Origin: Chitinophagales bacterium
GTDB lineage: Bacteria; Bacteroidota; Bacteroidia; Chitinophagales; CAIOSU01
Length of the DNA: 64,000 nucleotides
Direction of reading: 5' to 3'
Assembly: GCA_040877935.1 (NCBI GenBank)
Contig: JBBDNB010000044.1
Span: forward strand, 1 to 64,000
Shown here piece by piece: positions 44,784 through 61,709 of this stretch. Under the pieces are notes generated by a model, which worked only from the letters and a program-made list of their open reading frames with translations, ran no database searches and had not been told where the DNA came from. The translations under genes and the position numbers were made by a program. Numbering within the stretch: position 1 is the stretch's first letter; every line of letters begins with the position of its first letter.

Positions 44784-44821
44784 TTACACAATTTAAGCTA
44801 AGACTTACAATATTCACACAT
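44784..44821 (-). promoter_or_regulatory. AraC-type operator 1 (upstream of CsbD gene)
   Basis: TTACACAATT at 44784 and TTACAATATT at 44805, the second followed by CACACAT. Start-to-start spacing is exactly 21 bp. On the minus strand it precedes the CsbD start by ~70 bp, and CATCTTTG, near the -7 consensus, lies ~22 bp downstream. Confidence 0.75.
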
Positions 44822-44838
44822 TTCAGCTTGAGCATTCT

Positions 44839-45399
44839 TTATCGAATCATGGACATTTTTAAGGTATCCTCTTTTTCGCTGTATATAAACTTGCAATGTT
44901 TAAAGTGGGGAGCTTTTAACTTTGGTTTGAAATTGTTTGAAAATCCGTAAGGCTCTTTTGGAACACCAAGAAAATTTTTGTCGCATTCCCCATTCTTGTC
45001 CACATCCTGATAATGAGCTATTGCATATTCCCCATAATTAAGATCTGCTATTTGCACAATGAGCGTTTCCCCATTTGAAGTGAATTTATAGCCCTTGTGC
45101 CGATCGGTCTTGCTTAGGAATTCATGCTGTTCCTGATAAAAAACTATGTTCACTGGCGACTTGGTGGTGTCGAGATTTGTTATAATAAGGATTAGAGGCT
45201 TGTGTTTCTTTGTCCTTGAGGTGGTGTCGGGTTCTTCTGCTACAGTTGTTGTGTCGGTTTTGATGGTGACGGTGTCCAAGCATATGTCAACTGATTCAGT
45301 GGAGTCTTTGGGTTCGGGTGATTTACATCCGTTGATAGAAAGCACATAGAGCGTGATTAAGATTGCAATTGCAGCAATGATTTTTTGATAGGCTTTCAT
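44839..45399 (-). CDS. DUF2141 domain lipoprotein
   Basis: A 186-residue lipoprotein (signal to LSINGC, C25) with an acidic Thr-rich spacer (~30-65) and a DUF2141 domain: PVNIVFYQEQHEF, LNYGEYAIAHYQDVDKNGECDKNFLGVPKEPYGFSNN. The DVDKNGECDKN loop looks like a calcium-binding site. DUF2141 proteins are exported beta-sandwich proteins of unknown function. Its 5' end is ~290 bp from the CHRD gene. Confidence 0.8.
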   Translation of the reverse strand: MKAYQKIIAAIAILITLYVLSINGCKSPEPKDSTESVDICLDTVTIKTDTTTVAEEPDTTSRTKKHKPLILIITNLDTTKSPVNIVFYQEQHEFLSKTDRHKGYKFTSNGETLIVQIADLNYGEYAIAHYQDVDKNGECDKNFLGVPKEPYGFSNNFKPKLKAPHFKHCKFIYSEKEDTLKMSMIR

Positions 45400-45539
45400 A
45401 GAGGTCTATTTAATGACCTTTAATAATATTCTCATTTATCTCCTTTTTCTCTCAAATACATTTCATTTCTGTAAATATCGGTTTAAATCCCATTATCATA
45501 CCAAATTTAAGACCATTACAAGCCCCTTATATACACTTC

Positions 45540-45605
45540 CTAGTATAGTCGCTGGGCGTTGCCCTTGCTGTATAACTTAAGTCGGGCGGGCACTCATCCG
45601 CTAAT
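45540..45605. repeat. GC-rich intergenic island, possible dispersed repeat
   Basis: GTCGCTGGGCGTTGCCC followed by GTCGGGCGGGCACTCATCC stand out from the A+T-rich surroundings. I recall similar sequence from intergenic regions in other Bacteroidota, but cannot verify it here. It contains no gene. Confidence 0.3.
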
Positions 45606-45613
45606 TATTAGAA

Positions 45614-45655
45614 ATAAAAAAGCGCCCCAAATTAGAATGGGACGCTCTTTTTTAT
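45614..45655 (-). terminator. Bidirectional terminator after CHRD gene
   Basis: AGCG-C-CCCA (45621-45629) pairs with TGGG-A-CGCT (45638-45646), flanked by A5/T6 runs on both sides, so it would work on either strand. It lies ~40 bp past the CHRD stop codon. Confidence 0.75.
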
Positions 45656-45691
45656 TTTAGAAACTTCTTTCCAAAAGACTTTTGTATTAAT

Positions 45692-46525
45692 CTACAAAGC
45701 GCCTATATTTCCTTGGCAAAGGATGTAGTTTGGATTTGCAGAAGATTCAATGATATTTAAATAACCATCATATTCCATCCAGTTATCATAAGTGATTAGC
45801 GTACCATTGGAAAGTTTGGTTACATTGGTAAAACCTTTTCCTGAATCACCATTCACATCATTTAATTCGGCAACAACAGGTCCTCCGCCCACGGTATTGA
45901 CATCACCTAAGTGAATTTGAGTTGGATGAGATCCTCCGGCTAATGTTCCATCTAGGGTAATAGTTACAAGTGTATTGTTGTTGTTCCGCTTTTCGAAAAG
46001 TGCTGTACCCGATACACCAGAGCTATCTTTTTCTGTCAAATTATAGGTTTTGCTGGCACCAGTAAGCGCATTGCCTCCAATGTCTCCTTGTGAAACGATT
46101 ACACCTAAGTTGGATGCGCTTTGGTGCACATTTATATATCCATTAAATGCGATAAGCTCATCATAAGTAATGGGCGTATTATCGTCCAGGTGTGTTACTG
46201 AGGTAGTACTTTCCCCGTTGCCGTCAACAGAACTTAGCGTTACTGCTATACCGCCCGTTTCTACTGCAGAGTTAAAATGAATGTGTGCAGGATGGTTGCC
46301 ATCACTTACGCCATTCAGCTCAATTTCAATGGTAGTAGAATTGGCTCTTTCAATAAAAGTTACTTTACCCGATACTCCTAGCACATCTTTCACCTTCATG
46401 TCATATGAGACCTGGCGCATTGGTTTATCTTCTACTTCATCATCTTTCTTGCAACCACTTGCAAGCACTAAAAATAGCAGCGCAAAAATTGAGAAGGCTG
46501 CGAAAAAATTCTTTCTAATAGTCAT
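45692..46525 (-). CDS. CHRD domain lipoprotein
   Basis: A 277-residue lipoprotein: signal ALLFLVLASGC (C25), then two CHRD-like domains (residues ~40-150 and 155-275). Each contains a VSYDMKVKDVLGVSGKVTF- or YNLTEKDSSGVSGTALFEK-type opening, HPAHIHFN or HPTQIHLG with conserved histidines, and an ITYDELIAFNGYINVHQS or ITYDNWMEYDGYLNIIES ending. The CHRD fold appears in secreted bacterial and animal proteins of unclear role. A TTACANNATT pair precedes it, shared with the divergent AsmA-like gene. Confidence 0.85.
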   Translation of the reverse strand: MTIRKNFFAAFSIFALLFLVLASGCKKDDEVEDKPMRQVSYDMKVKDVLGVSGKVTFIERANSTTIEIELNGVSDGNHPAHIHFNSAVETGGIAVTLSSVDGNGESTTSVTHLDDNTPITYDELIAFNGYINVHQSASNLGVIVSQGDIGGNALTGASKTYNLTEKDSSGVSGTALFEKRNNNNTLVTITLDGTLAGGSHPTQIHLGDVNTVGGGPVVAELNDVNGDSGKGFTNVTKLSNGTLITYDNWMEYDGYLNIIESSANPNYILCQGNIGAL

Positions 46526-46589
46526 TTTGTTTTGTTTTAGATTTTATAAAATTAATAGCGCAAGATGTATAGACTTCTTACCAATGCGC

Positions 46590-46627
46590 TTACACAATTA
46601 TGGAAAAGAGTTACATGATTCACATAT
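46590..46627 (-). promoter_or_regulatory. AraC-type operator 2 (upstream of CHRD gene)
   Basis: TTACACAATT (46590) and TTACATGATT (46611), 21 bp apart, the second followed by CACATAT. It faces the CHRD gene, whose ATG is 65 bp away. Confidence 0.75.
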
Positions 46628-46638
46628 CTAATGGCAAA

Positions 46639-46676
46639 AAGTGTGAATGATGTAATGTTTTGAAATAATGATGTAA
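46639..46676 (+). promoter_or_regulatory. AraC-type operator 3 (upstream of AsmA-like gene)
   Basis: Reverse-strand reading gives TTACATCATT twice, 21 bp apart (complement TGTAA at 46651-46655 and 46672-46676), followed by CACAC. It points toward the plus-strand gene at 46726. Operators 2 and 3 lie back to back in the 200-bp divergent region. Confidence 0.75.
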
Positions 46677-46725
46677 TATATACCGATTAAAAATGAAGCA
46701 ACTTCGCCTTATTCTAATTTTAATC

Positions 46726-48312
46726 ATGAATAAAAAAACATTTTTTACAGTAATAGTCGTCTTGATTGCACTTACTGCATTAACAAAACTTTTAAGTACA
46801 GTCTTTCTGGAGCCCTGGGTCGGAAATAAAATGGAGGCAATGGTTAATGAAGGGAATGAGGATTTTACCATCGAAATTGACAAAGTGCATATTTCAATGA
46901 TAAGAAGGGAAATTCAATTTAGTGGCATTCACATCGAGTCAAAGGGCATACATCAGGCCAATACGGGTTTTAGCGGATCAATAGCCTCCATAAAATGCAC
47001 GGGAATCAAATTGCTTAAAGCTATATTCAATAATGATATCGACATTCGGGAAATTACTATTACCAATGCCAATATAAAAGGGACGATGCCCTTTTCAGGA
47101 GGAGCAAAGAAGCCCATGCTTTCGCCTGCGAACATCCGGCTTGGCAAATTGCAGTTTGTTCAATTAAATCTGGCTATAAATAATACTGCAAGCGCACAAG
47201 CGTATGCCGTGAAAAAAGGAGATGTGACATTCCATGATTTGCAAATTGAAAAAAAGGATGCCATTTCCACCAGCATTATTCAGGAATTTGATTTTGAAGC
47301 CGATGAAATCCTTTTTGTCTCCGCTGATAGCATGTACACCTATAAAAGCAGTGGCCTAAAATATTCCCATACTTCCGGCACCATGAGCGCAGATAGTTTT
47401 TTCATACAGCCCAATTACGAAAATTACGATTTCACATCGCGCTACAAGTATGAAACCGACAGGATTGAAGCTAGCTTTAGCAGTATTTCGGTTCACGATT
47501 TTTCTGCCATGCATTATTTAAAAAGCAAAAGCCTGATGAGCTCCTTTATCGAAATCGGACAAATGGAAATAAATGTTTTTCGGGATAAGCAAAAACCATT
47601 CAAGCATGTGAACAAAACTGCATTCCAGGATTTGATTTACAATTATCCGGGCGATCTCCATATTGATTCAATAGAACTAATAAACGGAAACCTCATTTAT
47701 ACCGAACATGCCGAAAAGGCAAACAAGCCTGGCAGCATCAGCTTCAATAATATCCAAGCTAAAATTCTTAAAGTAACAAACGACAAGATTTACAAAACAA
47801 AAAAAGACTTTTTAGTCATCAGCGGCCAGGCCCTGTTGATGGGAAAAGGCAAAATGACTATTTTATTGAAAGGAGAAATATACGACCCTGAGAATACATT
47901 TTTATTGAGTGGAACACTTTCCGATATGCAAGTAAAGGCGTTGAATCCCATGCTGGAGAAAAATGCTTTTGTATATGTCAATTCCGGGAAAGTAGATGCA
48001 ATGAATTTTAGCTTAATCGCAAATAATACTCAAGCAAGGGGTAAGATGACTATGCTCTATCATGCATTGGATCTCACAGTTAAAAACAAACAGACAGATG
48101 ACACCACAGCTTTAAAAGAGCAGATCATATCATTTTTAGCTAATAAAAAAGTGATAGACGCTAATCCGGTTTCAGGAAAGGAAGCAAGAGCAGGTACAAT
48201 AGTATATATTAGAGATCCCGAAAAATCCCTTTTTAATTACTGCTTCAAGGCTATTTGGTCTGGAATGAAATCCAGTCTTACCAAAAGCTCTAAGGACAAA
48301 AAGAACACCTAA
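46726..48312 (+). CDS. AsmA-like membrane-anchored protein
   Basis: About 528 residues with one N-terminal helix (FFTVIVVLIALTALTKLL) and a long beta-rich region with the spacing of AsmA/DUF748 proteins (FTIEIDKVHISMIRREIQFSGIHIESKGI, IASIKCTGIKLLKAIFNNDIDIREITITNANI). These are thought to help move lipids or assemble the outer membrane. ATG 46726 is preferred to ATG 46693 because the regulatory element ends at 46676, leaving only 16 bp for a promoter with the earlier start. Confidence 0.72.
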   Translation: MNKKTFFTVIVVLIALTALTKLLSTVFLEPWVGNKMEAMVNEGNEDFTIEIDKVHISMIRREIQFSGIHIESKGIHQANTGFSGSIASIKCTGIKLLKAIFNNDIDIREITITNANIKGTMPFSGGAKKPMLSPANIRLGKLQFVQLNLAINNTASAQAYAVKKGDVTFHDLQIEKKDAISTSIIQEFDFEADEILFVSADSMYTYKSSGLKYSHTSGTMSADSFFIQPNYENYDFTSRYKYETDRIEASFSSISVHDFSAMHYLKSKSLMSSFIEIGQMEINVFRDKQKPFKHVNKTAFQDLIYNYPGDLHIDSIELINGNLIYTEHAEKANKPGSISFNNIQAKILKVTNDKIYKTKKDFLVISGQALLMGKGKMTILLKGEIYDPENTFLLSGTLSDMQVKALNPMLEKNAFVYVNSGKVDAMNFSLIANNTQARGKMTMLYHALDLTVKNKQTDDTTALKEQIISFLANKKVIDANPVSGKEARAGTIVYIRDPEKSLFNYCFKAIWSGMKSSLTKSSKDKKNT

Positions 48313-48723
48313 GTGATTCTTTCTATTCTTATTTATTTCAGCATAATATGAGAAGGAGCATGAGAAATTAGCTTTAGGGGCTTGTCTGCTTCATAAAGAG
48401 CAGAGCGGATTAGCGATAAGCTTCTTTCAACAGAAATCAAACATCTTCACTTTCCCGGTGAAAAAAATACATTCGATAATACTTGCAAATGGAATTGCTT
48501 TGCAAAAAATAGTTATTCTCTGGTTTGCAGAAGTCGCACAGCAGAAAAATCATGTCCCCTTTGCGGATGAATGTGAAACGCAGGTAAAACAACTCAAAGA
48601 AAACATTTCCTAACATGCCTGGGATGGGAAATGGTTTAAACGCGCTTGATTTTTAATACACCAACGTCTGGAAAGATTTTGTTGGGCGGGAAGGGCATTC
48701 AAATTTTTATCGTCCTGCAATGA
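48313..48723. other. Intergenic region without a clear gene
   Basis: This 411-bp stretch lies between the convergent AsmA-like and OmpA genes. It has short open frames, for example one reading CKWNCFAK..KSCPLCG, and another ending in NFYRPAMI, but no frame is long or conserved-looking enough. It may hold remnants of a decayed gene. Confidence 0.4.
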
Positions 48724-50667
48724 TTATTCGGACAACACTTTTACCTCAGCCTTGCGATGCAATTCACTTTTTCCTTCCACTGCCTTTTCATCTCCAAAAA
48801 ATCTAAGGAGAATGCGGGCGGCAGGGATATTATTTTTTTCAAGCACATTTTTAACCGCCAATGCTCTTTTCTCTGAAAGCATCTTATTATAATCCGATTC
48901 GCCCCACCTATCTGCAAATCCCGTTACCAAAATCTTTGCTGTGTCAGATTGGGCAAGAAGTGATTGCGCAAATTCAGAGAGTTGCTTCCGGTAAGGTTCT
49001 TCTACAACATAAGAGTTTTTCTCAAAAAACACATTGACCGGTGCTAGCTCAAGTGTTTCTTTTTCTACTTCAACACGAGCAGTATCACGAATGATTTTTA
49101 CAGGGGTTTTTTGTTGCAAAGAATCTCTTTCCGGTTCAAGCTGCTGTTTGCTTGTTTCCGGTTCTGCTATATAAATCGTGTTCGTTTTTTCCTGAACATC
49201 TTTTTCTGTAATCACCTGCTTTTCAATAACGGTATCAGTTTTCGATTCTACAGATGCTGGGGTTTGAACAGTATCGGACTTTTTTTCTACCTGCACTTCT
49301 TTATAGGGCGTTTCATCCTGAATTTGTTTCATTTTCACCTTTGCTGAATCATCAATCATCATTTCAGCTTCTTCAAAAATCAGCGCAGAGGTATCCGGTT
49401 CGCTTTTGTCTTTTTGAGGAATCTGCAACTCAATCGTATCCACTTTTAATTTCGGTATAAGCTTCATCGAATCTTTCGGTAATTTCATGGGCGTGATGAC
49501 AGTATCAATCACCGTATGAATGACAGGTTGTTCTTTCAGAGAATCCTTTGCTGAAATGATTTTTCCAATTTCAATCACCGAGTCTTTACTTGTCAGCCTT
49601 ATGTGTTTTGACAATGAATCAATGCGCAAATTCAATGATTTGATTTCATCCTGTAGTTTTTTTATTTCATGAACCGGTTGAGATTTTGAAGCATCGGGAT
49701 AAGCGTTCCTTGATGGAGCGCGTGATTCCCGAAACAATTTAGGGTCCATCTGAAAATCCAATGACTCGTTTTCATTCACCAAAATGGAAATAATCGTATC
49801 ATTCAAGAGGATGCGAACGCCTTTTTCTTTTGGCAGCACAGTTTCATGAACATCTATCTCCTCCAGTATATAAATAGTATCTTTTTTAATTCTTGCCGCA
49901 GTGTCCGCAATTTCTTTTTTGACAATATCTGTTTTCTTCAAACTATCGACTGATGGTTGAATTTTTTCTTCTTCACTCTCTGGTTTTTCGAGCGGTATCA
50001 TTGCCCAACCTTTTTCCCCGGTATAAAAAGCAGGCGCTTTGTATTTTGCTTTTCTCATTCCGAAATTGAAGTGGGCTGAAAGGGTAATGAGGTAATAAAA
50101 ATCATTCAGGTTATTCGTGCCAGAAACATTCGCGTCTAATTTGTCCGTGAAAGTGTAACGCATATCGCCCCGTAAGTCGAGGTTAAATCGGTCGGACAAT
50201 CGCGCTTTCAGCCCAGCACCCGCGGGAATAAATCCTGTGCGCACCTCTTCGGTTGTGACAGCTTCAATATTATACCATCCAAAACCGCCACCGGCAAAAA
50301 GATAGGGCGAAAAAAGCGAGCGGGCGTGAAGTAGCTTTCCATTATCAAATTGATACACTAATCTGAGTGAAACGCTTTTAGCATCTGTTTCGAAATCGGG
50401 TTGCACCGCATCAATATCAGAAGCGGGAATGGAGAATTTTCCATGATCAGCCATTACGTTAATGCCGAATGATGGCGTGAAGTTGTATTGCAGGTCAACG
50501 CCATAGGGCAGGAAGACAGGCTTGGAAGTGAAGGGAACGATTGTTTTATCGCCAATATAATTCATGTAACCGAGATGGATGCCTAACCTCCATTTATACA
50601 AATCCTGTTGCGCATGAAGCGCAGACGAAAAAAGAAGAATGAAAATGAATGTAGTAAAATGCTTCAT
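48724..50667 (-). CDS. OmpA family outer membrane protein with barrel and linker
   Basis: About 647 residues from ATG 50667, with signal peptide FIFILLFSSALHAQ. Residues ~20-220 form an 8-stranded barrel (LGIHLGYMNYIG, LVYQFDNGKLLHARSLFSPYLFAGGGFGWYN, LITLSAHFNFG). Next is a long charged, Lys/Asp/Thr-rich linker (~230-530). The last ~110 residues are an OmpA-like peptidoglycan-binding domain (NVFFEKNSYVVEEPYRKQL, VTGFADRWGESDYNKMLSEKRA). It anchors the outer membrane to the cell wall. It follows the unknown 384-residue gene by 2 bp. Confidence 0.87.
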   Translation of the reverse strand: MKHFTTFIFILLFSSALHAQQDLYKWRLGIHLGYMNYIGDKTIVPFTSKPVFLPYGVDLQYNFTPSFGINVMADHGKFSIPASDIDAVQPDFETDAKSVSLRLVYQFDNGKLLHARSLFSPYLFAGGGFGWYNIEAVTTEEVRTGFIPAGAGLKARLSDRFNLDLRGDMRYTFTDKLDANVSGTNNLNDFYYLITLSAHFNFGMRKAKYKAPAFYTGEKGWAMIPLEKPESEEEKIQPSVDSLKKTDIVKKEIADTAARIKKDTIYILEEIDVHETVLPKEKGVRILLNDTIISILVNENESLDFQMDPKLFRESRAPSRNAYPDASKSQPVHEIKKLQDEIKSLNLRIDSLSKHIRLTSKDSVIEIGKIISAKDSLKEQPVIHTVIDTVITPMKLPKDSMKLIPKLKVDTIELQIPQKDKSEPDTSALIFEEAEMMIDDSAKVKMKQIQDETPYKEVQVEKKSDTVQTPASVESKTDTVIEKQVITEKDVQEKTNTIYIAEPETSKQQLEPERDSLQQKTPVKIIRDTARVEVEKETLELAPVNVFFEKNSYVVEEPYRKQLSEFAQSLLAQSDTAKILVTGFADRWGESDYNKMLSEKRALAVKNVLEKNNIPAARILLRFFGDEKAVEGKSELHRKAEVKVLSE

Positions 50668-50669
50668 AA

Positions 50670-51824
50670 TTAAAATCCCAGCCAAAGGTTCAACTCTATA
50701 GCAATACCGATATAAGGTCTGATATATACTTTTCCAAAATCAACTAATTTGTTACTGTCTGTACTTTGCAACACGACCGCACCTGCATTTAAGCGGACTA
50801 CTTTCAAAGTCTTTATGCCTAAACCGAGATAATATGGTCGTTTGACCAAGGGGCCGGTAGCGCCCTTTCCGTCTCCGAAATCAAAATCCTGAATAAACAC
50901 ACCGGTTGAAATTGCCAGACGGTTGAGCCCCGTGCGTGAACTTCCGCGACCAAGCGGGAATGATAGTCCGAGCATTACTCCCGAACCATAGGTGAAATTG
51001 TCAACCCCTCCGTCATTATAGGCACCACCGTATCCCGCGTTAATAGCGAAGGTATATTTTTCATGCTCTGTGGGATAATCAATAATGGTTTTATTGTCGG
51101 TGATAATCATCAGGTAATCATCAATAAATTGCGTGATTTCCCTGGCTACAAGCAGTTTTACGCCCTCAATTTGTTTTCTTGCGTACGCCATGCGCGTAGC
51201 AGCTTTATTCATATCGCCTTCACCGTCATGCAGCGCGCGGCTCAGGTTTATATTTTCCAATTGCTGCAACTGACTGAGAATAATATCAGAGAAACCATTG
51301 AACCGAAAATTGTTTTTGTTATCGTAAAAAGATAATGAGGTCTCTACGATTTGGTCCATGTCCTTGATGAGTAGTTTGGGATTTTTCAGTAGCGTGATGC
51401 TTCTTTTTTTTACCTGAACGGATTGTTCTAGATATTGAAAAAGCACTTCTTCCAGCATGGCGTGAAGACTTTGACTCTGAGCATCAGATGCTGGTTGAAA
51501 ATAATTGATGACGAAGGTGTATTCCGAACTCCCATTCAGTTTGTAATTGATGGGCAGCGTAAAAGTGTTTTGCAGATTGTTGTTCGGTCTTTTCCAGAGG
51601 GCGGTGTGAAGCGGGGCTTTATCCGTGTTCGAGGTTCTGTAAATTTTTAACTGCACCATCTGAACATCAGAGGACACCTCGCCATTGAGCATTAGATAAT
51701 CTTGTGCCGGCAGCGGTTGACCTTCATTGAAATAGGATCTTTCATAATTAAAATTGACGGTTTTATACTGAGCATGCGCTAAGAAGGAAGAACACAAGGC
51801 GAATAAAAGAATGATGTTTTTCAT
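50670..51824 (-). CDS. Exported protein of unknown function, barrel-like C-terminus
   Basis: A 384-residue protein with a signal peptide (LLFALCSSFLAHAQ). The N-terminal part has beta strands (MVQLKIYRTSN, YTFVINYFQPASD), the middle is helical (HAMLEEVLFQYLEQSVQ, ARKQIEGVKLLVAREITQFIDDY), and the last ~120 residues alternate as a small outer-membrane barrel (NAGYGGAYNDGG, GVMLGLSFPLG, YLGLGIKTLKVV, YIRPYIGIAIELNLWLGF). It lies in one strand run with the OmpA gene (2-bp gap) and the LapA gene, so it may be an outer-membrane partner. Confidence 0.7.
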   Translation of the reverse strand: MKNIILLFALCSSFLAHAQYKTVNFNYERSYFNEGQPLPAQDYLMLNGEVSSDVQMVQLKIYRTSNTDKAPLHTALWKRPNNNLQNTFTLPINYKLNGSSEYTFVINYFQPASDAQSQSLHAMLEEVLFQYLEQSVQVKKRSITLLKNPKLLIKDMDQIVETSLSFYDNKNNFRFNGFSDIILSQLQQLENINLSRALHDGEGDMNKAATRMAYARKQIEGVKLLVAREITQFIDDYLMIITDNKTIIDYPTEHEKYTFAINAGYGGAYNDGGVDNFTYGSGVMLGLSFPLGRGSSRTGLNRLAISTGVFIQDFDFGDGKGATGPLVKRPYYLGLGIKTLKVVRLNAGAVVLQSTDSNKLVDFGKVYIRPYIGIAIELNLWLGF

Positions 51825-51908
51825 TATATAATTATAGTTTTATTGATGCTGAAACTTAATGAGATGTTGTTCATCCATTTAAAGCTTGCATCATTGCTTT
51901 GATAAAGT

Positions 51909-52232
51909 TTATTTTCTGATTTCTGCTCTTGCTTCTAGTTGTTTTATTTTTGCAGCCTGTTCGGAATTTTTCGTTCTCAATGCAGCACTCTCTTTTTTGT
52001 ATTTACTTTCACTGTTTCTTCCGCTGAAATAAGCGGGCATGGTCAACGCCAGCGCGGCAATTACTCCCAAAAGCATAGTGATGATTATTAAAAGCGCGAG
52101 GGGTGTTTCCACCTGCCATAAGAAAAAGACAACTTCTATATCAGAAGAATTTTGTAAGGTAAAAACCACCGCAATGACTGCGATGACTAGCCAAACAACA
52201 AGCATTAGGGGATAATTTCTATTATTACTCAT
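51909..52232 (-). CDS. LapA domain-containing membrane protein
   Basis: A 107-residue protein with two membrane helices (LMLVVWLVIAVIAVVFTLQNS, LALLIIITMLLGVIAALALTMPAY) and a cytoplasmic coiled-coil tail, the typical LapA/DUF1049 layout (hydrophobic FTLQN motif). In E. coli LapA works with LapB in LPS assembly; the role here is inferred. It is between the small hydrophilic gene and the 384-residue gene. Confidence 0.82.
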   Translation of the reverse strand: MSNNRNYPLMLVVWLVIAVIAVVFTLQNSSDIEVVFFLWQVETPLALLIIITMLLGVIAALALTMPAYFSGRNSESKYKKESAALRTKNSEQAAKIKQLEARAEIRK

Positions 52233-52326
52233 ATGTTAATACTTAATTATTTTTATGCACATAGACTTAAACAAGTTACCTTGGCTGGTGTCCTCACCGA
52301 ATAGCAAATTAGCTTGCAAAAAACAT

Positions 52327-52666: not shown

Positions 52667-53746
52667 TTAAGACCTACCCAATTTTTTCAGGTAGCGATAA
52701 TGTGAGCGAAGGGCGTCAGAAAAATTTTCATGATAATGGTAAGGCACATGATATTGAGATGCCGTGCGCTGCAATATCTTGCTGATTGCGGGATAATGAA
52801 TACTACAGACTCGTGGAAACAAATGATGTTCCACCTGGAAATTCAAGCCGCCTACATACCAGGTGATAAAACGATTATTCATTGCAAAATTATTGGTGGT
52901 GCGCATTTGGTGAATCGCCCACGATGCTTCTATCCCACCTCTTCCATCATGCTTTAATTGGTCGGTTTCTTCTACGGCATGCGCCAATTGAAAGATGACC
53001 CCCATAATAATTCCTGACACTAAGTGTATAGTAAGAAAACCGATGAGAAATTGCCACCAGGTAATGTCCATCACAAGTAAGGGAATCAAAATCATATAGG
53101 TATAATAAAAAACTTTAAAAAGCGTCAACTCAATGATTTCAGAAACAGGATGCTTCTTGTTTTTGTACGGACCGATATTTTTCTGCGAGAGCTTTTTGTA
53201 GTCTTTAAAGAATACCCAGAAAAAAGTAGCAAATGAATATGCTATGAATGCCAGCACATGCTGATAACGATGAATGCGCTTATACAATTTATGTTTGGAT
53301 AAACGAATAAATGGTGCGATCTCCAAATCTTCATCATATTCGTGGATGTTGGTATAAGTATGATGCGCCAGATTATGGGTGATGCTCCACACATAGCGGC
53401 TTCCTCCGATAAGGTTCATCGTGAGCGCTAAAAAATAATTGACTTTGCTATTGGAAGAGTAGGCTCCGTGTATGCTGTCATGCGCTACGCAAAATCCCAG
53501 TCCGGCTATTCCCGCTCCCATCACGATGCAAAGAAAAAACATCGCCCACATAGGCAGAAAATCGGCTATAATCAGTCCGTAGGCGCCATACGTTATAATG
53601 AAAATCAAAATCGTTTTAATAATCATTTGCGTGTTGGCATGTGGCGATAGTCTGCGCGCGGCAAAATAGTTATTCACCTTGGATTTTAATTCAGAATAAA
53701 ATCGGTCGTTTTTTGATTGCTGAAATGTGATTTTTGCTAAAGTCAA
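52667..53746 (-). CDS. Front-end fatty acid desaturase (acyl-lipid/acyl-CoA)
   Basis: A 359-residue membrane di-iron desaturase with the three histidine boxes: HDSIHG (box 1), HNLAHHTY (box 2) and QVEHHLFP (box 3, with Gln instead of His first, typical of Delta-5/6-like desaturases). Helices occur at ~45-95 and ~170-240. It should introduce a double bond near the carboxyl end of membrane fatty acids, which fits cold or envelope stress. The start is TTG 53746. The genes around it are regulated by the AraC-type element. Confidence 0.9.
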   Translation of the reverse strand: MTLAKITFQQSKNDRFYSELKSKVNNYFAARRLSPHANTQMIIKTILIFIITYGAYGLIIADFLPMWAMFFLCIVMGAGIAGLGFCVAHDSIHGAYSSNSKVNYFLALTMNLIGGSRYVWSITHNLAHHTYTNIHEYDEDLEIAPFIRLSKHKLYKRIHRYQHVLAFIAYSFATFFWVFFKDYKKLSQKNIGPYKNKKHPVSEIIELTLFKVFYYTYMILIPLLVMDITWWQFLIGFLTIHLVSGIIMGVIFQLAHAVEETDQLKHDGRGGIEASWAIHQMRTTNNFAMNNRFITWYVGGLNFQVEHHLFPRVCSIHYPAISKILQRTASQYHVPYHYHENFSDALRSHYRYLKKLGRS

Positions 53747-53795
53747 AAGTGAAATAGAATTTATGATAAAAGGATATTCAGAATATAATATTTCA

Positions 53796-54104
53796 TTAAC
53801 AGTGGGATGAATTTTTTCCGATTAAGTACATCGGCTTTTCAGATTGAAGCACAAAGCTTTTCAGATGTTTTATGAATGCTTCGGGATTCTCCATGTTGGC
53901 GATAAGACCGATATGATCCATAATGTTGAACGTGGTAAAATACGGAATTTTCTCGTGTATCAAAACATCTATTGCAAGGTGATTGATTTTATCTTCTTTT
54001 CCCAGCATAATTTTACCTGTAAATATTGGATGCCCTTTCCCTTTGCTGATCTCATCGCTCAGGGGATATACTATCTTGCTTAATCGGGGATCGGATTTTT
54101 CCAT
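53796..54104 (-). CDS. Small uncharacterised protein, paralogue of 54378 gene
   Basis: A 102-residue cytoplasmic protein of unknown family. Its first 20 residues (EKSDPRLSKIVYPLSDEISKG) resemble the start of the neighbouring gene (MKKPDTQLSNIVKKLSDEI), and the DNA upstream of both is also similar, indicating a tandem duplication. The remainder (IDVLIHEKIPYFTTFNIMDHIGLIANM) differs. No motif identifies a role. Confidence 0.6.
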   Translation of the reverse strand: MEKSDPRLSKIVYPLSDEISKGKGHPIFTGKIMLGKEDKINHLAIDVLIHEKIPYFTTFNIMDHIGLIANMENPEAFIKHLKSFVLQSEKPMYLIGKNSSHC

Positions 54105-54147
54105 GTTATGGATTTTGATTGACGGGTTTCATTCTTTCCTGCCCATT

Positions 54148-54378
54148 TTATTTGTTTGAATGATCATTTTTAAGAACAACCTGCTTTGTACTCCGGCAAT
54201 CTGAACCGTTTATCATTGTGTATTTTATACCACTTTTTTCCGATGCCTTACATAGGTCTTCCAGGATTTTGTAAACTTGAAATTTACCTATGCTATGGAA
54301 AAGATTGGGATAACGTTCCCTAATTTCATCGCTCAGTTTTTTTACAATGTTGCTTAATTGAGTGTCGGGTTTTTTCAT
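54148..54378 (-). CDS. Small uncharacterised protein in AraC-type regulon
   Basis: About 76 residues from the ATG at 54378, chosen because it matches the start of its neighbour; an ATG two codons upstream and a TTG at 54402 are alternatives. Contains NIVKKLSDEIRERYPNLF and CKASEKSGIKYTMINGSDC. Unknown family. A TTACANNATT pair lies ~100 bp upstream (54481-54518). Confidence 0.58.
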   Translation of the reverse strand: MKKPDTQLSNIVKKLSDEIRERYPNLFHSIGKFQVYKILEDLCKASEKSGIKYTMINGSDCRSTKQVVLKNDHSNK

Positions 54379-54480
54379 GACCATACAGATTTTGATTGAC
54401 AAATTCAGTCTTTCGTACCCATTTTAAATTGCTTAGATGATTCTTACATATAAAAGTGGGTCGGATAAATGAGAAAAGCG

Positions 54481-54518
54481 TTACAAAATTTTTAGAAAAT
54501 CTTACATAATTCACACTT
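54481..54518 (-). promoter_or_regulatory. AraC-type operator 5
   Basis: TTACAAAATT (54481) and TTACATAATT (54502), 21 bp apart, followed by CACACTT. It faces the gene at 54378 (about 100 bp) and possibly the run down to the desaturase. Confidence 0.72.
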
Positions 54519-54567
54519 TTTGGGGCAAGAATGCCGCCTGTCTGAGAGGGAAAGAATACCTTTATTC

Positions 54568-55287
54568 TTAATCTCTCATAGACAGATTAATCAACTCCAG
54601 GTTGTCAGGACTTACATGCACCAGCCCATAGCGGTTGCGGAATCGGTCGCCTTTGGTACCTTCCTTTAGTTCTTCTGCAGAAAGGCGTTCCGCAAGCGGT
54701 ACAAAATCATTGGTGTGCGCATAGCAAGGGTTTTCCAATGTGGGATAAACTTTATTATAATTGTTTAAAACCATACTGACATTTGCGGTGATGAAATCCA
54801 CCGGCAGCTTATCTTTCCGGGTATTAATCTTTATTAGAATAGCCTGAACAGGGTCAGTGGCGACTGCAATGTGATCAAACCCTAATTTCAGCGCGAGTGC
54901 GTATCCATAAAAAAGATTTTCTGTACTGTGCTCTGCCCTCGATTCCACAAAAATGTGCTTGGCTGGAATCCCCAGGCTTTGGGCATATTGCGCCATGATC
55001 TCCGATTCCACATAGGGCGTGTGTACTGCGGCTCCTGAAAAAATCACATTTTCGGTAATGCCGTTCTTTATAAGGTGATAAGCCCAAAACACTCGCAGCC
55101 GCATCACAAAGTTGATTTCCTGCTCGCTTTCCGTGTAAGGGAACCCCGGCACGATTACCACATCATAAGGTGCTGTGCGTTGCGCTTTGTTGTATTGAGC
55201 CTGTGGGAACAACACGCATCCAGAAAGAAGCGTAGCCAACGCTATCAGCAGTAGGATTGTGGGAAAGGTATTTTCTGTGGTTTTCAT
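54568..55287 (-). CDS. YdcF family (DUF218) lipoprotein
   Basis: A 239-residue lipoprotein (signal to TLLSGC, C24) with the DUF218/ElyC-SanA-YdcF fold: PYDVVIVPGFPYTE, NGITENVIFSGAAVHTPYVESEIMAQYAQSLGIPAKHIFVESRAEHSTENLFYGYAL. Homologues affect cell-wall or envelope stability; the reaction is unknown. It begins ~130 bp after an AraC-type operator. The protein lacks the second membrane helix of some relatives and uses lipid anchoring instead. Confidence 0.84.
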   Translation of the reverse strand: MKTTENTFPTILLLIALATLLSGCVLFPQAQYNKAQRTAPYDVVIVPGFPYTESEQEINFVMRLRVFWAYHLIKNGITENVIFSGAAVHTPYVESEIMAQYAQSLGIPAKHIFVESRAEHSTENLFYGYALALKLGFDHIAVATDPVQAILIKINTRKDKLPVDFITANVSMVLNNYNKVYPTLENPCYAHTNDFVPLAERLSAEELKEGTKGDRFRNRYGLVHVSPDNLELINLSMRD

Positions 55288-55416
55288 TTTTACTGTTTTG
55301 CCTACAGGTGCTTAGTATATAACAAAACCTGTGTCCGGAAGTTTTGCAGGGAGAACAACATGCGCAAAAGTGTATTGAAATTTGATTAAAATTCGGAAAG
55401 TATGTGAAGGAAATTG

Positions 55417-55454
55417 TTACAAAATTTTAGGAAATACTTACATGATTCACACAT
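55417..55454 (-). promoter_or_regulatory. AraC-type operator 6 (upstream of YdcF gene)
   Basis: TTACAAAATT (55417) and TTACATGATT (55438), 21 bp apart, followed by CACACAT. The start codon at 55287 is 130 bp away. Confidence 0.75.
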
Positions 55455-55505
55455 TGCAATAACATTATGGAATGATTGAAGTAAATTCACAATTACGCCT
55501 AGCAC

Positions 55506-55551
55506 AATTCCTCAGTAGCCTCAAGGCATGCCTTGAGGCTACTGAGGAATT
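55506..55551. repeat. 46-bp perfect palindrome
   Basis: AATTCCTCAGTAGCCTCAAG at 55506 is followed by GC, then by its exact reverse complement; the centre is GGCATGCC. All 23 base pairs match. It would form a stable cruciform or, in RNA, a strong hairpin. The right half then continues as the tandem repeat. Confidence 0.9.
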
Positions 55552-55630
55552 ATCTTGTGGCTACTGAGGAATTATCTTGTGGCTACTGAGGAATTATCTT
55601 GTGGCTACTGTGGAATTATCTTGTGGCTAC
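55539..55630 (+). repeat. 22-bp tandem repeat
   Basis: Four copies of CTACTGAGGAATTATCTTGT plus GG, starting at 55539, 55561, 55583 and 55605; the fourth has one change (CTACTGTGG), and a partial fifth follows. The unit contains the palindrome's outer sequence (CTACTGAGGAATT), so the two structures share an origin. Confidence 0.9.
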
Positions 55631-55827
55631 ATTGGCTAGTTCAACAGACCTGAAATTTAAATTAGGATAAAATAATTTCTTCTGAACGACCAATTTTCAC
55701 AAGGCTTTTCATGGGGCATGAAAGACATTCTGCCAAAAAATGGTTGAAGTTGAACCCTGATTTAATAAAGCAAATGAGATTCTTGATGCATTAGTATTCA
55801 TCCTTAATTTTTACTATATTAATAGAA

Positions 55828-56316
55828 ATGAAAAATTCAAATAAATCCCCTCAAAATCCCCTAAATATCCTTCTTGCAGATGATGATTTGGACGATTGCT
55901 TTCTATTTACAGAAGCACTGGAGGAATTGCAGGTAGATGTCCAGCTTAAAATGGTCCACGATGGCGAACAATTGATGCAGTGGCTCACTGATAAAGCCAA
56001 TAAACTTCCGGATATTCTTTTTCTCGACATCAATATGCCGCGCAAAAATGGATTGGACTGTTTATCGGAAATAAAAAACAACGAGCTTCTCCAAAATTTA
56101 TCGGTAGTTATTTTTTCCACCTCCTCTGATAATGATATGGTAGTACAGGTCTATAAAGATGCCGCGCATTATTATATCCACAAACCCCCTAAATTCTCAC
56201 AGCTCAAAAATATAATACAAAATGTGCTTAGCCTTCTGGGGCAGGAAAATAGCCCCCTTCCCTTAAAGGAAAAGTTTATCCTTACGGGAATTACAGAAAA
56301 TCCCAAATTGAAATGA
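55828..56316 (+). CDS. Single-domain response regulator (Rcp1-like)
   Basis: A 162-residue receiver-only protein. The acidic pocket is DDDLDDC (18-24), the phosphorylated aspartate is D67 (FLDINMPRKNG), the Ser/Thr switch is in IFSTSS and the lysine in YIHKPP. No output domain. It precedes the CheB-CheR-kinase fusion with a 4-bp overlap (ATGA) and is probably its phosphorylation partner. A C-terminal tail of ~25 residues extends past the receiver fold. Confidence 0.92.
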   Translation: MKNSNKSPQNPLNILLADDDLDDCFLFTEALEELQVDVQLKMVHDGEQLMQWLTDKANKLPDILFLDINMPRKNGLDCLSEIKNNELLQNLSVVIFSTSSDNDMVVQVYKDAAHYYIHKPPKFSQLKNIIQNVLSLLGQENSPLPLKEKFILTGITENPKLK

Positions 56317-59300
56317 AACCAACAGCCGATCCAAAAAAAAGCAGAAAAAAATCAACTAAATCTGCCAATTTATTTCCAGTAATAGGTATTGGCGCCTCCG
56401 CAGGCGGCTTGGATGCCTTTAAAAAACTGATCAAAACCATTCCCGAAGATTCAGGTATGGCATTCGTGCTGGTTCAGCATCTTGATCCGCACCACGAAAG
56501 CATGTTGCCAGAAATTTTGCAAAAAGAAACAAGTGTGCCTGTTGTAGAAATTACGGATGACATTAAAGTGGAGCCGAACCATATTTACGTGATTCCCAGC
56601 AATAAAATGATGGTGGCAAGGGATAGCGTTTTATTGCTCACTAAGCGTCCTGAAAAAAGCATAACCGATCGCACCCTGCCCATAGACTTATTTTTCACTT
56701 CCTTGGCAGAGGTGCATCAAAGCCATGCGATAGGGGTGGTGTTATCGGGCACTGGCAGCGATGGCACACTGGGGCTGAAAATGATAAAAGATCACGGTGG
56801 CATTACCATTGCGCAGGAAGAAGCCTCCGCTGCTTACAACGGAATGCCCCACAGCGCAGTGCAGGCAAATGTGGTTGACTTCATTCTTACACCAGAAAAA
56901 ATTCCGCAAAAATTAATAGAGCTTTGCTCCAATATGGATAAAAGTGATGAGGATCTGCAAAACCTCTTGCAGCCCGAGGAGGAGGTTTTTAAAAAAATTC
57001 TCGCGCTGCTATCCATTCGCAAGGGAGTCGATTTTACTTATTATAAACAGACAACAGTGCGCAGAAGGATATTGCGCAGGATGGCCTTGAGTAAAATCGA
57101 TAAGCTAGCCACTTACCTTAAAAAAATAAGGGAAAATACTGCGGAGCAAAATATTTTATACCAGGATCTTTTAATTCCGGTAACAGCTTTTTTTCGCGAC
57201 ACAGATACCTTTGACTATTTATGTGAAAATGTTTTTCCGCGCATTGTAGAAAACAAAGCGCCTGGCGAAACCATACGGGTGTGGGTAGCGGGATGCAGCA
57301 CAGGAGAAGAGGCCTATTCCATTGCCATGTGTTTTAGGGAAATATTGGACGACAATAGAAGAGTGCAAATTTTTGCCAGCGACTTAAGCGAACCTGCCAT
57401 TGCAAAAGCGCGCTCTGGTATTTATACTAAAAAAGAGGTGGAAGCCTTAATGCCAAAACGCTTGCAGAAATTTTTCAAGAAACACAATGGCAATTATCTG
57501 GTGAATAAAAACGTGCGGGATATGTGCGTGTTTGCCATTCACAATTTATTAAAAGACCCACCATTCGGCAAAATGGATTTTATCAGTTGTCGCAATGTGC
57601 TTATTTATATGGATCCCTATTTGCAAAAAAAGGCATTGACCACCTTTCATTATGCCTTAAATCCGAGGGCAATATTGCTGCTCGGTAAAACAGAAAGTAT
57701 CACTGGAGTGCCTGAACTATTTGCTGTAGTTGAAAAAAAAGACAAATTATTTTCACGCAAAGATGGGCCCGGAAAATACATGCACGTGGCCAGTCAGCGA
57801 AGCGAACAAAGTCTTAGTCCTATTGAAGCCCCGACAGGAAACGAAACTTCACGAACCGATTTTCAAAAAACGGCAGATGATATTATACTCCGCAATTATA
57901 GCCCTGCCGGTGTGGTGATCAACGAAACTGCGGACATCGTGCATTTCAGGGGCAAAACAGGACGCTTTTTAGAGCAGTCGCCCGGCAAGCCAAGCCACAA
58001 CTTATTAAAAATGGCAAAAAGCGGATTGTCTTTTGAATTGCGCAGTATTTTGCACAATGTAAAAAAACAAAATGCCCCTGTTTCAAAAGAAAATATCACC
58101 TTGACAACAGAAGATGGCACACATAAAATCGCTATAGAGGCACTTCCGCTCCCCAATATGATAGAGCCGCATTATATGATTCTCTTTCACGATTCTAAAT
58201 CGCATAGCGACCATCAGTCAGGTTCTAGAAATAGCATCGATAAAACGGCCCCCAGTAAATCAAAAAGCAACAGCAAAGATCAATATATCCAGCAATTAGA
58301 ACAGGAATTGGAGCAAAAGCGCGAAGATATGCACAGCATTATCGAAGATCAAGAAGCAGCCAACGAAGTGCTACAAACTGCAAATGAAGAATTGCTGAGC
58401 AGTAGTGAAGAATTGCAAAGCCTGAACGAAGAATTAGAAACCGGAAAAGAAGAACTGCAAAGTACGAATGAAGAGTTGATAGTGGTAAATCAGGAAATAT
58501 TCAGTTTGAACGAACACGTGACAGAGGCGCGGGATTATGCCGAGGCTATTTTAGCCAATATTCGCGAACCTTTGCTGGTGCTAGATGAAAACTTGATGGT
58601 AAAAACAGCGAACAATGCTTTTTATAAAACATTCCGTGTAAACGAAGCGGAAACGGAAGGTCTTTTGATTTATGATATAGGCGATAAACAATGGAATATC
58701 CCTGCTTTGCGCACATTACTTGAAAAGATCCTTCCTGAAAAATCAAAGATTATCCATTTTGAGGTTACGCATACATTTTCAAACATAGGAAAAAGGGTAT
58801 TGCTATTGAATGCATGGGAAGTAGTCAATAAGAATAACAAGGAAAAATTAATTCTGCTATCGATTGAAGACAATACAGTGCGCTCTAAAATACTAGGGAA
58901 AATTGAAGAAAGCGAAAAACGATTTAGGCAGATGGCCGAGCTGATGCCCCAAAAAATATGGACTGCGGATGCAGCGGGAAATCTGAATTATCTCAATAGC
59001 TGTTGGTTTGAATATACCGGTCTTACATTTAATCAATTAAAGGGCTGGGGATGGGAAAAAGCCGTTCATCCAGATGATTGGCCCAAAACCAAAGATGTCT
59101 GGCTGCGCTCCCTTTCCACAGGAGATAATTTTGAAGTGGAACACCGCTTTTTGAATACGGCAGGAATCTATAAGTGGCATTTAACGCGCGGATTGGCACA
59201 GAAAGATGGGCAAGGAAAAATAACAATGTGGATTGGTACAGATACCGAAATTCAAGGACAGCAGGAGCTAAAACAAGAATTGGAAAGGCAAGTTGTTGAC

Positions 59301-60077
59301 AGAACCCAAGAAGTATTGGAAGCAAATGAAACACTAGAAGAAAAAATTCAGGAGCTTGAAGGAGTGAATTCCGAGCTTGAATCCTTTGCTTACGTTTCCA
59401 GCCACGATTTGCAAGAGCCACTGCGCAAAATACAAACCTTTGCAGACCGTATTCTTGAAAAAGAAAACAAGAACCTATCTCCTAAGGGCAAGGATTATTT
59501 CCAACGGATGCAGTCTGCCGCCAATCGCATGCAGGTGCTCATTAAAGATATACTGACTTTTTCCAGGGTAAAAACTACGGAAGGGGATTTTGAAATTACA
59601 GACCTGAAAACTATTATTGAGGATGTGAAAATAGAACTCAAAGTAGAAATAGACGAAAAGCAGGTAAATATTGAAGCCGATGAATTGGGAATGGCTAAAA
59701 TCATCCCTTTCCAGTTCCGGCAGCTTATGCAAAACCTGATCAGCAACTCCATTAAGTTTTCAAAACCTGGACAGCGGCCACACATCGTAATCAAGAGCAG
59801 TATTGTAAAAGGCGATACTGTGAAAAACACCATGCTATTGCCTGAATTAAATTATTGCCACATTTCTTTTTCAGACAATGGTATTGGTTTTGCTCCCAAA
59901 TTTAAGGACAAGATATTTGAGGTATTTCAAAAATTGCACAGCAGAGACGAATATCCGGGCACTGGCATTGGCTTGTCGATTGTGAAAAAGATTGTGTCTT
60001 ATCACGATGGCGCAATTACTGCTAAAAGCACCTTGAATGAAGGGGCTACTTTTGATATTTATATTCCTGAAGACTAA
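56313..60077 (+). CDS. CheB-CheR-PAS-histidine kinase fusion protein
   Basis: A 1254-residue cytoplasmic signalling protein. Order: CheB methylesterase (~20-215; triad S29 in GIGASAGG, H56 in QHLDPHHE, D150 in GTGSDGT), CheR methyltransferase (~235-480; FFRDTDTF, SAM loop GCSTGEEAYS from 327), coiled coil (~653-740), PAS (~741-860), a second PAS (~870-995, NYLNSCWFEYTGL), and a histidine kinase (phospho-acceptor H1031 in SSHDLQEP, N-box NLISNSIKF, G-box DNGIGFAP and GTGIGLS). No membrane segment. It overlaps one response regulator and is followed 12 bp later by another. There is no classical receptor, CheA or CheW gene around it, so the CheB/CheR part may not serve chemotaxis. Confidence 0.93.
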   Translation: MKPTADPKKSRKKSTKSANLFPVIGIGASAGGLDAFKKLIKTIPEDSGMAFVLVQHLDPHHESMLPEILQKETSVPVVEITDDIKVEPNHIYVIPSNKMMVARDSVLLLTKRPEKSITDRTLPIDLFFTSLAEVHQSHAIGVVLSGTGSDGTLGLKMIKDHGGITIAQEEASAAYNGMPHSAVQANVVDFILTPEKIPQKLIELCSNMDKSDEDLQNLLQPEEEVFKKILALLSIRKGVDFTYYKQTTVRRRILRRMALSKIDKLATYLKKIRENTAEQNILYQDLLIPVTAFFRDTDTFDYLCENVFPRIVENKAPGETIRVWVAGCSTGEEAYSIAMCFREILDDNRRVQIFASDLSEPAIAKARSGIYTKKEVEALMPKRLQKFFKKHNGNYLVNKNVRDMCVFAIHNLLKDPPFGKMDFISCRNVLIYMDPYLQKKALTTFHYALNPRAILLLGKTESITGVPELFAVVEKKDKLFSRKDGPGKYMHVASQRSEQSLSPIEAPTGNETSRTDFQKTADDIILRNYSPAGVVINETADIVHFRGKTGRFLEQSPGKPSHNLLKMAKSGLSFELRSILHNVKKQNAPVSKENITLTTEDGTHKIAIEALPLPNMIEPHYMILFHDSKSHSDHQSGSRNSIDKTAPSKSKSNSKDQYIQQLEQELEQKREDMHSIIEDQEAANEVLQTANEELLSSSEELQSLNEELETGKEELQSTNEELIVVNQEIFSLNEHVTEARDYAEAILANIREPLLVLDENLMVKTANNAFYKTFRVNEAETEGLLIYDIGDKQWNIPALRTLLEKILPEKSKIIHFEVTHTFSNIGKRVLLLNAWEVVNKNNKEKLILLSIEDNTVRSKILGKIEESEKRFRQMAELMPQKIWTADAAGNLNYLNSCWFEYTGLTFNQLKGWGWEKAVHPDDWPKTKDVWLRSLSTGDNFEVEHRFLNTAGIYKWHLTRGLAQKDGQGKITMWIGTDTEIQGQQELKQELERQVVDRTQEVLEANETLEEKIQELEGVNSELESFAYVSSHDLQEPLRKIQTFADRILEKENKNLSPKGKDYFQRMQSAANRMQVLIKDILTFSRVKTTEGDFEITDLKTIIEDVKIELKVEIDEKQVNIEADELGMAKIIPFQFRQLMQNLISNSIKFSKPGQRPHIVIKSSIVKGDTVKNTMLLPELNYCHISFSDNGIGFAPKFKDKIFEVFQKLHSRDEYPGTGIGLSIVKKIVSYHDGAITAKSTLNEGATFDIYIPED

Positions 60078-60089
60078 ATAATTATTTAT

Positions 60090-60536
60090 ATGGAAACCAA
60101 AGCAATTAACATACTACTTGCCGATGATGATGATGGCGATCGCCTTCTTTTTAAGGAAGCTATTGGTGAATTGAAAATAAAATCAGTTGTTCATACGGTG
60201 AATGATGGAAATCAATTGATGGACTATCTTAAAAAAGGTGGTAACCCTTTGCCCCAACTTATTTTTTTGGATTTGAACATGCCGCAAAAAAACGGTTTGG
60301 AATGTTTGGTAGAAATTAGAAGCGACAAAAAGTTAAAGGATATAGCCATTGCCATTTTTTCTACCTCAGCTTCTGAAAAGGATATTGATGCTACATTTAT
60401 AAACGGTGCAAATGTTTATATCCAAAAACCCAATAGCTTTATTGTGCTCAAGGAAGTATTGTCCAAAGCAATTTCAACTGCACACCTCTATCAGCATCCA
60501 CCTTTTAATAAAGATAATTTTTTACTGAGGGTTTGA
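60090..60536 (+). CDS. Single-domain response regulator 2
   Basis: A 148-residue receiver-only protein similar to the one at 55828 but clearly diverged. Acidic cluster DDDDGD (12-17), phosphorylation site D61 (FLDLNMPQKNG), STSASE and YIQKPN. It starts 12 bp after the kinase fusion gene, so the kinase is bracketed by two receivers on one transcript. The two may form alternate outputs of the kinase. Confidence 0.92.
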   Translation: METKAINILLADDDDGDRLLFKEAIGELKIKSVVHTVNDGNQLMDYLKKGGNPLPQLIFLDLNMPQKNGLECLVEIRSDKKLKDIAIAIFSTSASEKDIDATFINGANVYIQKPNSFIVLKEVLSKAISTAHLYQHPPFNKDNFLLRV

Positions 60537-60591
60537 TTTGAAATGCATTAGGAAATTCCTGCTTGCAGCAAGCAAGTATTCCCGCTTGAAA

Positions 60592-61161
60592 TCACACCAT
60601 TTTTAAGTTTTCAAGCGCTTGTCGTCTTTTCTTTTTGATTTGCTTGAAGTAGCTGGGCGTTAATCCTGTTATTTTCTTGAATTGATTGGACAGATGTGCC
60701 ACGCTGCTGTAATCCAGTTTGTAGGATATTTCAGTAAGGTTGAGCTCATCGTACAAGAGCAGCTCTTTTACTTTTTCAATTTTATGGGCAATGAAGAATT
60801 GCACAATGGTGATGCCCGTAGTTTCAGAAAAAATATTGGCAAGATAAGTATAGTCGTGCTCTAGTTTTTGGCTGAGATAAATGGAATGTTTGATCTTTGG
60901 CATTTGCGGCTCATTGTGTACCATTTCTACAATGACATTTTTTATTCTCTCTATCAACATGGCTTTTTTATCGTCCATCAGCTCAAGCCCTGATTCAAGC
61001 AATTCGATTTTCAATTGATTGCGCTGCTCAGGAGTAATGTCTTCGATAATTTCCACATCTCCCAGTTCAACTGTTACATAGTGCAGCCCCATTTTCTCAA
61101 GTTTCTCTTTCACCATCATCTTGCAGCGAAGGGAAACCATGTATTTGACATATAATTTCAT
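60592..61161 (-). CDS. AraC family transcriptional regulator with HMA-like N-terminus
   Basis: A 189-residue regulator with a C-terminal AraC-type double helix-turn-helix (~95-185): TTGITIVQFFIAHKIEKVKELLLYDELNLTEISYKLDYSSVAHLSNQFKKITGLTPSYF. The N-terminal ~75 residues resemble a ferredoxin-like heavy-metal-associated domain common in this Bacteroidota group (usually starting MVCxRC). Here the motif reads MVSLRC, so one metal-binding cysteine has been lost. It is the only AraC protein in the window and has its own type of operator just upstream (61189-61226). It probably controls the seven TTACANNATT pairs listed here. Confidence 0.85.
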   Translation of the reverse strand: MKLYVKYMVSLRCKMMVKEKLEKMGLHYVTVELGDVEIIEDITPEQRNQLKIELLESGLELMDDKKAMLIERIKNVIVEMVHNEPQMPKIKHSIYLSQKLEHDYTYLANIFSETTGITIVQFFIAHKIEKVKELLLYDELNLTEISYKLDYSSVAHLSNQFKKITGLTPSYFKQIKKKRRQALENLKMV

Positions 61162-61188
61162 GTCTCTAAGTTAATCATTTTTGAAGGG

Positions 61189-61226
61189 ATGTGTGAATGA
61201 TGTAATTCTTTCCCTGAATTGTGTAA
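61189..61226 (+). promoter_or_regulatory. AraC-type operator 7 (between regulator and lmo0937-like gene)
   Basis: Reverse-strand half-sites TTACACAATT (complement ends at 61226) and TTACATCATT followed by CACACAT (complement 61189-61205), 21 bp apart. It points to the plus-strand gene at 61297, 71 bp away, and CATCTTTA lies ~22 bp downstream where a -7 element would be. It might also affect the divergent AraC gene. Confidence 0.78.
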
Positions 61227-61703: not shown

Positions 61704-61709
61704 ATTAGC

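Follow-up and report, generated by a model that had tools for sequence, protein, structure and literature searches.

The closest described relatives of the arrangement reported here are the AraC/XylS class II activators (AraC, MarA and SoxS), which share with it a double-HTH domain of the same fold and a direct-repeat site beside the promoter; class II activation is known for all three. AraC carries a sugar-binding cupin at its front, whereas the front of the protein described below is ferredoxin-like, and, unlike with the AraC/XylS activators, a single protein here seems to control a large number of unlinked stress-type operons through two tandem half-sites held in one fixed place. To our knowledge, how stress is coordinated in Bacteroidota, in which sigma-S and sigma-B are lacking, is largely unexplained. 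The sigma-S and sigma-B stress regulons overlap with the present gene set in their types of target (CsbD-like, lmo0937 family, Usp and ferritin/Dps-like). Unlike in those regulons, the promoters here keep a sigma-A −7 box, the consensus of which is TAnnTTTG in a flavobacterium according to PMC9723704, and specificity would lie in the activator site.

The window analysed here is a stretch of 64,000 nucleotides from a Chitinophagales bacterium. Seven direct-repeat sites within it, together with four elsewhere in the same genome, are probably the operators of a single regulon, which an AraC-family protein would activate and which may centre on a stress response of the cell envelope. The preliminary description had listed the seven pairs, and all are present where it placed them: the half-sites read TTACANNATT in 14 of 14 cases, the offset is 21 bp in 7/7, and the distal half, said to be followed by CAC(A/C), is followed by CACA at each of the seven.

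At the left end of the series is operator 1 (44784-44819, minus strand), which would serve a csbD-led gene row running from 44716 down to about 43097; the csbD-like gene itself spans 44537-44716 on the minus strand, with its start corrected as explained below. Operators 2 (46590-46625, minus) and 3 (46641-46676, plus) lie back to back within 46590-46676, about 25 bp apart, between divergent genes: the CHRD-domain gene (45692-46525), a candidate target of operator 2, and a long AsmA-like ORF whose start is probably 46726, a candidate target of its divergent partner. The AsmA label is that of the preliminary description, and Pfam gave no match above cut-off for the ORF. Operator 4 (52583-52618, minus) would serve the small ORF 52327-52527 and the minus-strand genes behind it, which comprise a LapA-domain gene (51909-52232) and, on the same strand, outer-membrane genes (48724-51824) in a putative operon. 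Similarly placed is operator 5 (54481-54516, minus), ahead of the small ORF 54148-54402, followed in a presumed minus-strand operon by ORF 53796-54104 and a fatty acid desaturase gene (52667-53746); the first of these ORFs has neither a Pfam nor an NCBIfam match, and the second has none in the NCBIfam scan. Operator 6 (55417-55452, minus) precedes a DUF218 (YdcF/ElyC-like) gene (54568-55287). Inserted between araC and the gene for a DUF5670/lmo0937-family membrane protein (61297-61452, plus) is operator 7 (61191-61226, plus), which points to the DUF5670 gene and lies about 30 bp from the araC start. An RNA-element reading of the region was dropped, an Rfam scan of 43000-63000 at the gathering threshold having returned 0 matches.

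Within the window the pattern, allowing up to three mismatches, gives 13 matches against a shuffle mean of 2.87, and 0/100 shuffles reach 13. A search of the complete assembly (4,028,069 bases, 4.03 Mb, in 63 contigs), which had been proposed with the original claim, recovers 11 perfect copies of the 21-bp direct repeat, 7 of them inside the window, and the four extra ones also lie upstream of genes. Relaxing the search to two mismatches raises the count to 33, and the reversed pattern then scores 9, so chance accounts for part of the two-mismatch matches. The extended form TTACANNATT-N5-AAA-N3-TTACATNATTCACAC, which includes CACAC, was allowed up to three mismatches and recovered the same 11 sites, its reversed control giving 0. 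Because the remaining four sites are on other contigs (C8, C38, C39 and C43), the regulon is concentrated in the window yet not confined to it.

The candidate regulator is encoded by araC (60592-61161, minus strand), a 189-aa protein of AraC type whose front domain is ferredoxin-like. Its C-terminal AraC double HTH is recognized by Pfam (HTH_18, 57 bits with a cut-off of 33.6; HTH_AraC, 38.4 bits with a cut-off of 26.6), and the structure model (pLDDT 89) matches the AraT C-terminal domain (Foldseek, 9e-6), MarA (2e-4 and 4e-4) and AraC (6e-4), model and Foldseek together pointing to an AraC-type DNA-binding fold. The hallmarks of AraC/XylS sites, tandem asymmetric direct sites at the promoter with the regulator gene linked, are also found, as a matter of arrangement and linkage. 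Searched with its own sequence at E 1e-3, the protein is the sole match within the window, and the genome holds no second close copy, the one further match having E 2e-4 and 23% identity. Pfam detects no LytTR DNA-binding domain in the candidate protein.

Around homologues of araC the same element recurs. We examined the best 80 of 364 homologue loci (63-76% identical), one of which belongs to candidate division KSB1 and the rest to Bacteroidota and their relatives. Their flanks (1.34 Mb) contain 18, 28 and 26 core matches at 0, 1 and 2 mismatches, against 0, 0 and 3 for the reversed pattern, and a core match with at most one mismatch occurs in 22/80 loci. A weight matrix for which the tested locus was left out of the training set detects 135 sites in 61/80 loci above 16 bits (reversed matrix, 0) and 154 sites in 70/80 loci above 12 bits (reversed, 1), the hold-out being imperfect because some loci are near-copies (for example, L063/L065 and L088/L092); at these thresholds 19/80 and 10/80 loci are site-free. 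The preliminary description would have been contradicted by a motif scattered at random. What was found is placement ahead of genes: the four sites outside the window precede genes, and 134/135 homologue-locus sites fall outside ORFs of at least 100 aa, compared with 27% of random positions. An ORF of at least 100 aa starts within 300 nt downstream of 87/135 sites (random, 12.6%), and 14/135 have a divergent ORF on the opposite side (random, 15%).

The operator precedes araC itself in 12/80 loci. In many homologue loci (L059, L063, L064, L069, L071 and further ones, at 10553) it sits in the last araC codons or just past them and points to the next gene, and at least two araC copies of the family, often in tandem, are present in 13/80 loci (L068, L074, L077, L109, L120, L125 and others). 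The operator has two forms, GTGAAT and GTGATW, whose distribution tracks the AraC tree (12 changes, compared with 23.1 when shuffled; 0/500 shuffles as low). Operator base 9 (A or T) shows a strong raw association with AraC residues 35, 67, 120, 174, 180 and 182, which comes down to only 2 independent pairs, so no individual residue could be linked to the operator form.

Read in the direction of the gene, the operator is AATGTGTGAATNATGTAAC-TTWTT-N5-AATTRTGTAAC, a 39-nt element containing two direct-repeat half-sites 21 bp apart, with a conserved GTGTG block 10 bp past the distal half. Downstream of it is a −7 box, AnnTTT(G/A), which begins 23 nt past the element in 43 and 22 nt past it in 4 of 55 sites (the 11 of this genome and those near homologues that differ from the core at no more than one position, chosen without regard to the box). 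These 47/55 sites therefore provide no promoter box departing from the housekeeping one, as an alternative sigma factor would call for. In the window, read by eye, A-N-N-T-T-T-(G/A) starts exactly 23 nt beyond the proximal half at five of the seven sites, and the other two have a degenerate box at the same offset (ATCTTGC at CHRD and AACTTCG at AsmA). The −7-like box noted in the preliminary description is thus present, and more regular than claimed. No −33 TTG was found in 46/47 box-bearing sites when looked for at 17-23 nt spacing upstream of the box; this lack, together with the fixed spacing of the −7 box, is consistent with promoters that depend on an activator. The proximal half-site occupies the −33 place, suggesting class II activation, and the predicted promoter layout resembles that of a class II activator promoter. 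Because the first ATGs of the CsbD and AsmA ORFs (44767 and 46693) precede the −7 box, the starts are probably the next in-frame ATGs, 44716 and 46726; with these corrected starts the distance from site edge to ATG is 49-129 nt, close to the 50-130 bp originally reported.

Of 395 genomes from the phylum, 32 contain the pattern with at most one mismatch and 1 contains the reversed pattern. A homologue of the AraC protein is found in 169/395 genomes at E 1e-30 and in 38 at E 1e-60 (hand count), and the one-mismatch pattern is present in 14/38 genomes with such a close homologue versus 18/357 others (Fisher 7e-8). A sequence-only operator profile, built from 50 sites including those of the genome described here, matches in 79/395 genomes at E 0.01. 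At E 1e-4 it matches in 24, comprising 16/38 with a close homologue, this genome among them, versus 8/357 others (Fisher 8e-13); the remaining 22/38 close-homologue genomes have zero matches at that threshold. Among the eight without a close homologue, five have a weaker one (E 1e-30) and the others are G017, G022 and G198. With the present genome excluded, 15/97 profile sites (E ≤1e-3) are within 1 kb, and 39/97 within 20 kb, of an AraC-family gene among the matches listed, against 0.09 and 1.5 expected for an assumed genome size of 4 Mb. Throughout the phylum the predicted operator accompanies this AraC family, in many cases immediately next to the gene, and the sequence-based link between candidate regulator and operator is strong.

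The genes that follow the operators belong recurrently to stress and envelope families. Outside the window, one site of the own genome precedes an ice-binding-like gene (PF11999, 4e-61) adjoining groEL (by eye); the C38 site (L195:10198-10236) lies between genes for a short-chain dehydrogenase, to which it points, and a Cu-type ATPase (by eye); and the last two precede a second ice-binding-like and a second csbD-like gene (both by eye). Taking as the target of each homologue-locus site the longest ORF with a start at most 300 nt downstream gave one for 133/135 sites, and these 133 ORFs, clustered by similarity with seven window genes, form 58 groups, 42 of them singletons. The largest holds 13 surface proteins (ice-binding-like, Ig-like or a related repeat type), followed by araC itself (12), CsbD (11, one from the window), cupin-like proteins (11), small secreted proteins (8), coiled-coil lipoproteins (7), OmpA-type proteins (7) and barrels (6), with DUF5670 (3, one from the window), SPFH, YtxH and AI-2E types among the small groups. 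Pfam, run on 99/133 targets, reports Cupin_2 (9), OMP_b-brl (8), Ice_binding (6) and OmpA (6). G132 and G074 have ferritin/Dps-like genes behind operators, and G022 has a Usp gene there. By name these are stress and envelope families, which suggests a stress role. For the envelope and stress functions assigned to the window in the preliminary description, the desaturase, LapA-domain and outer-membrane genes are indeed found behind operators, and the stress signal rests on family names. Upstream of the regulon, at 39764-41606, inspection by eye picked out a protein resembling an efflux adaptor, which has metal-motif stretches at its two ends, together with a small lipoprotein carrying a similar motif; no tie to the operators was seen.

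The front domain of the candidate regulator is predicted to be ferredoxin-like (model pLDDT 90). Structure comparison places GolB (Z 8.2) and Atx1 (Z 8.1) among its best matches, and kinship with HMA domains is suggested, not settled, because these copper chaperones tie with ACT-type domains (8.2 and 8.0). Foldseek gives a best E of 0.05 for this domain, comparison with the sequences of solved structures nothing below E 0.8, and Pfam at E up to 0.1 only HTH families in the protein, with no match to the HMA family. The HMA metal motif CxxC is missing from the window protein (MVSLRC): Cys13 is present in 97/97 close homologues, and the first HMA cysteine is Ser in 92/97, as it is in the window protein; both cysteines are found in 5/97 close homologues and in 9/13 distant ones. 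Sharing the architecture of the window protein are copper-type HMA-AraC homologues of Bacteroidota (32-46% identity in the rows inspected). These keep the CxxC and have copper genes as neighbours, as seen by eye for the distant homologues inspected in G003, G017 and G022, whereas in the window protein the first cysteine is gone and the neighbours are kinase, receiver and DUF5670 genes. A weaker operator-like site in G003 (L168:6547-6585, 20.6 bits) precedes a P-type ATPase gene near a copper-type AraC homologue, as if the copper-type branch used a related site.

Between operator 6 and araC, all on the plus strand, are a stand-alone receiver protein (55828-56316), a CheB-CheR-PAS histidine kinase hybrid (56313-60077) and a second stand-alone receiver (60090-60536), the last convergent with araC. 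By association, the kinase is a possible sensor and the first receiver a possible part of its path. A histidine kinase with a receiver-only protein lies behind araC on the same strand within 4.5 kb in 11/80 homologue loci (65/80 have that much flank), and in 8/80 a CheB/CheR gene is found no more than 9 kb from araC, as in the window. Pfam shows no DNA-binding domain in the receiver proteins beside araC. We propose a path from kinase to receiver to AraC.

In the mechanism that these features suggest, two monomers of the 60592-61161 protein would bind as a tandem pair along a single face of the DNA and contact RNA polymerase at the place of the missing −33 element, switching the target genes on by class II activation. 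Less certain are the signal and the outcome. The HMA-like front domain may take a redox or metal signal directly via Cys13, or the signal may arrive through the kinase and receiver proteins often encoded beside araC; the outcome may be a general stress response with the envelope at its centre.

An AraC-type regulon is the best-supported reading, the operators following the AraC family across the phylum and the protein having a clear AraC DNA-binding domain. That a different DNA-binding protein occupies the operators, with AraC merely a neighbour, we regard as quite unlikely. LytTR-type proteins would be candidates, since their sites are direct repeats about 21-22 bp apart, and operators without a close AraC homologue do occur. 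G017 and G022, of one genus, have seven profile matches each (E 0.01), partly upstream of Usp, OmpA-type and barrel genes (L205, L184, L169, L170 and L209), no close homologue, a copper-type one (33-34% identity, away from the sites) and AraC proteins that differ in architecture; G198, whose two strong sites both lie near contig ends, has no full-length homologue, its sole match being HTH-level at E 4.5e-5. Against such a binder stand the tracking of sites with homologue presence over the 395 genomes, the far-above-expectation proximity to AraC-family genes of sites chosen regardless of gene, the position of the GTGTG block, which suits a double-HTH monomer, and the receivers devoid of a Pfam DNA-binding domain. 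Unlikely, too, is a regulon that responds to copper or another metal, with the protein a metal sensor like its copper-type homologues. The resemblance of the front domain to copper chaperones, the retained CxxC and copper-gene surroundings of distant homologues, and the Cu-type ATPase gene next to the C38 site would favour it; the replacement of the first HMA cysteine by Ser in the window protein and nearly all close homologues argues against it, as do the recurring CsbD, cupin, ice-binding-like and outer-membrane targets, which are not metal genes.

The direction of control bears on a further alternative, in which the AraC protein represses from these operators. A repressor could also work from the −33 place that the proximal half covers, but the fixed −7 distance and the missing TTG at 46 of the 47 boxed promoters make this very unlikely. 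Least probable of all, to the point of being negligible, is an origin of the sites as chance matches or repeats in AT-rich intergenic DNA. The motif is AT-rich, and lone one-mismatch matches in some of the 395 genomes may be chance; a chance or repeat origin of the set is nevertheless ruled out by the shuffles, the reversed controls (0 versus 11) and the fixed promoter geometry, together with the intergenic placement.

The putative AraC-type circuit recurs across the phylum with a nearly fixed promoter architecture and is larger than the preliminary description saw. No description of it was found in the open-licence literature, which is weak evidence of absence because subscription papers lay outside the scope; the circuit may be an undescribed stress response. 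A broader possibility, which we advance tentatively and consider doubtful, is a phylum-wide Bacteroidota general stress response placed under an activator and not an alternative sigma factor, in which a degenerate domain of metal-chaperone type, formerly a copper sensor, docks the stand-alone receivers encoded next to araC and a PAS kinase thereby controls a receiver-less AraC protein. If true, a metal-sensor family would have given rise to a stress regulator. What the analysis yields is an operator of defined sequence, candidates for the master regulator and for the sensor, and a target list open to testing in tractable species, and the operator motif would predict the regulon in further genomes.
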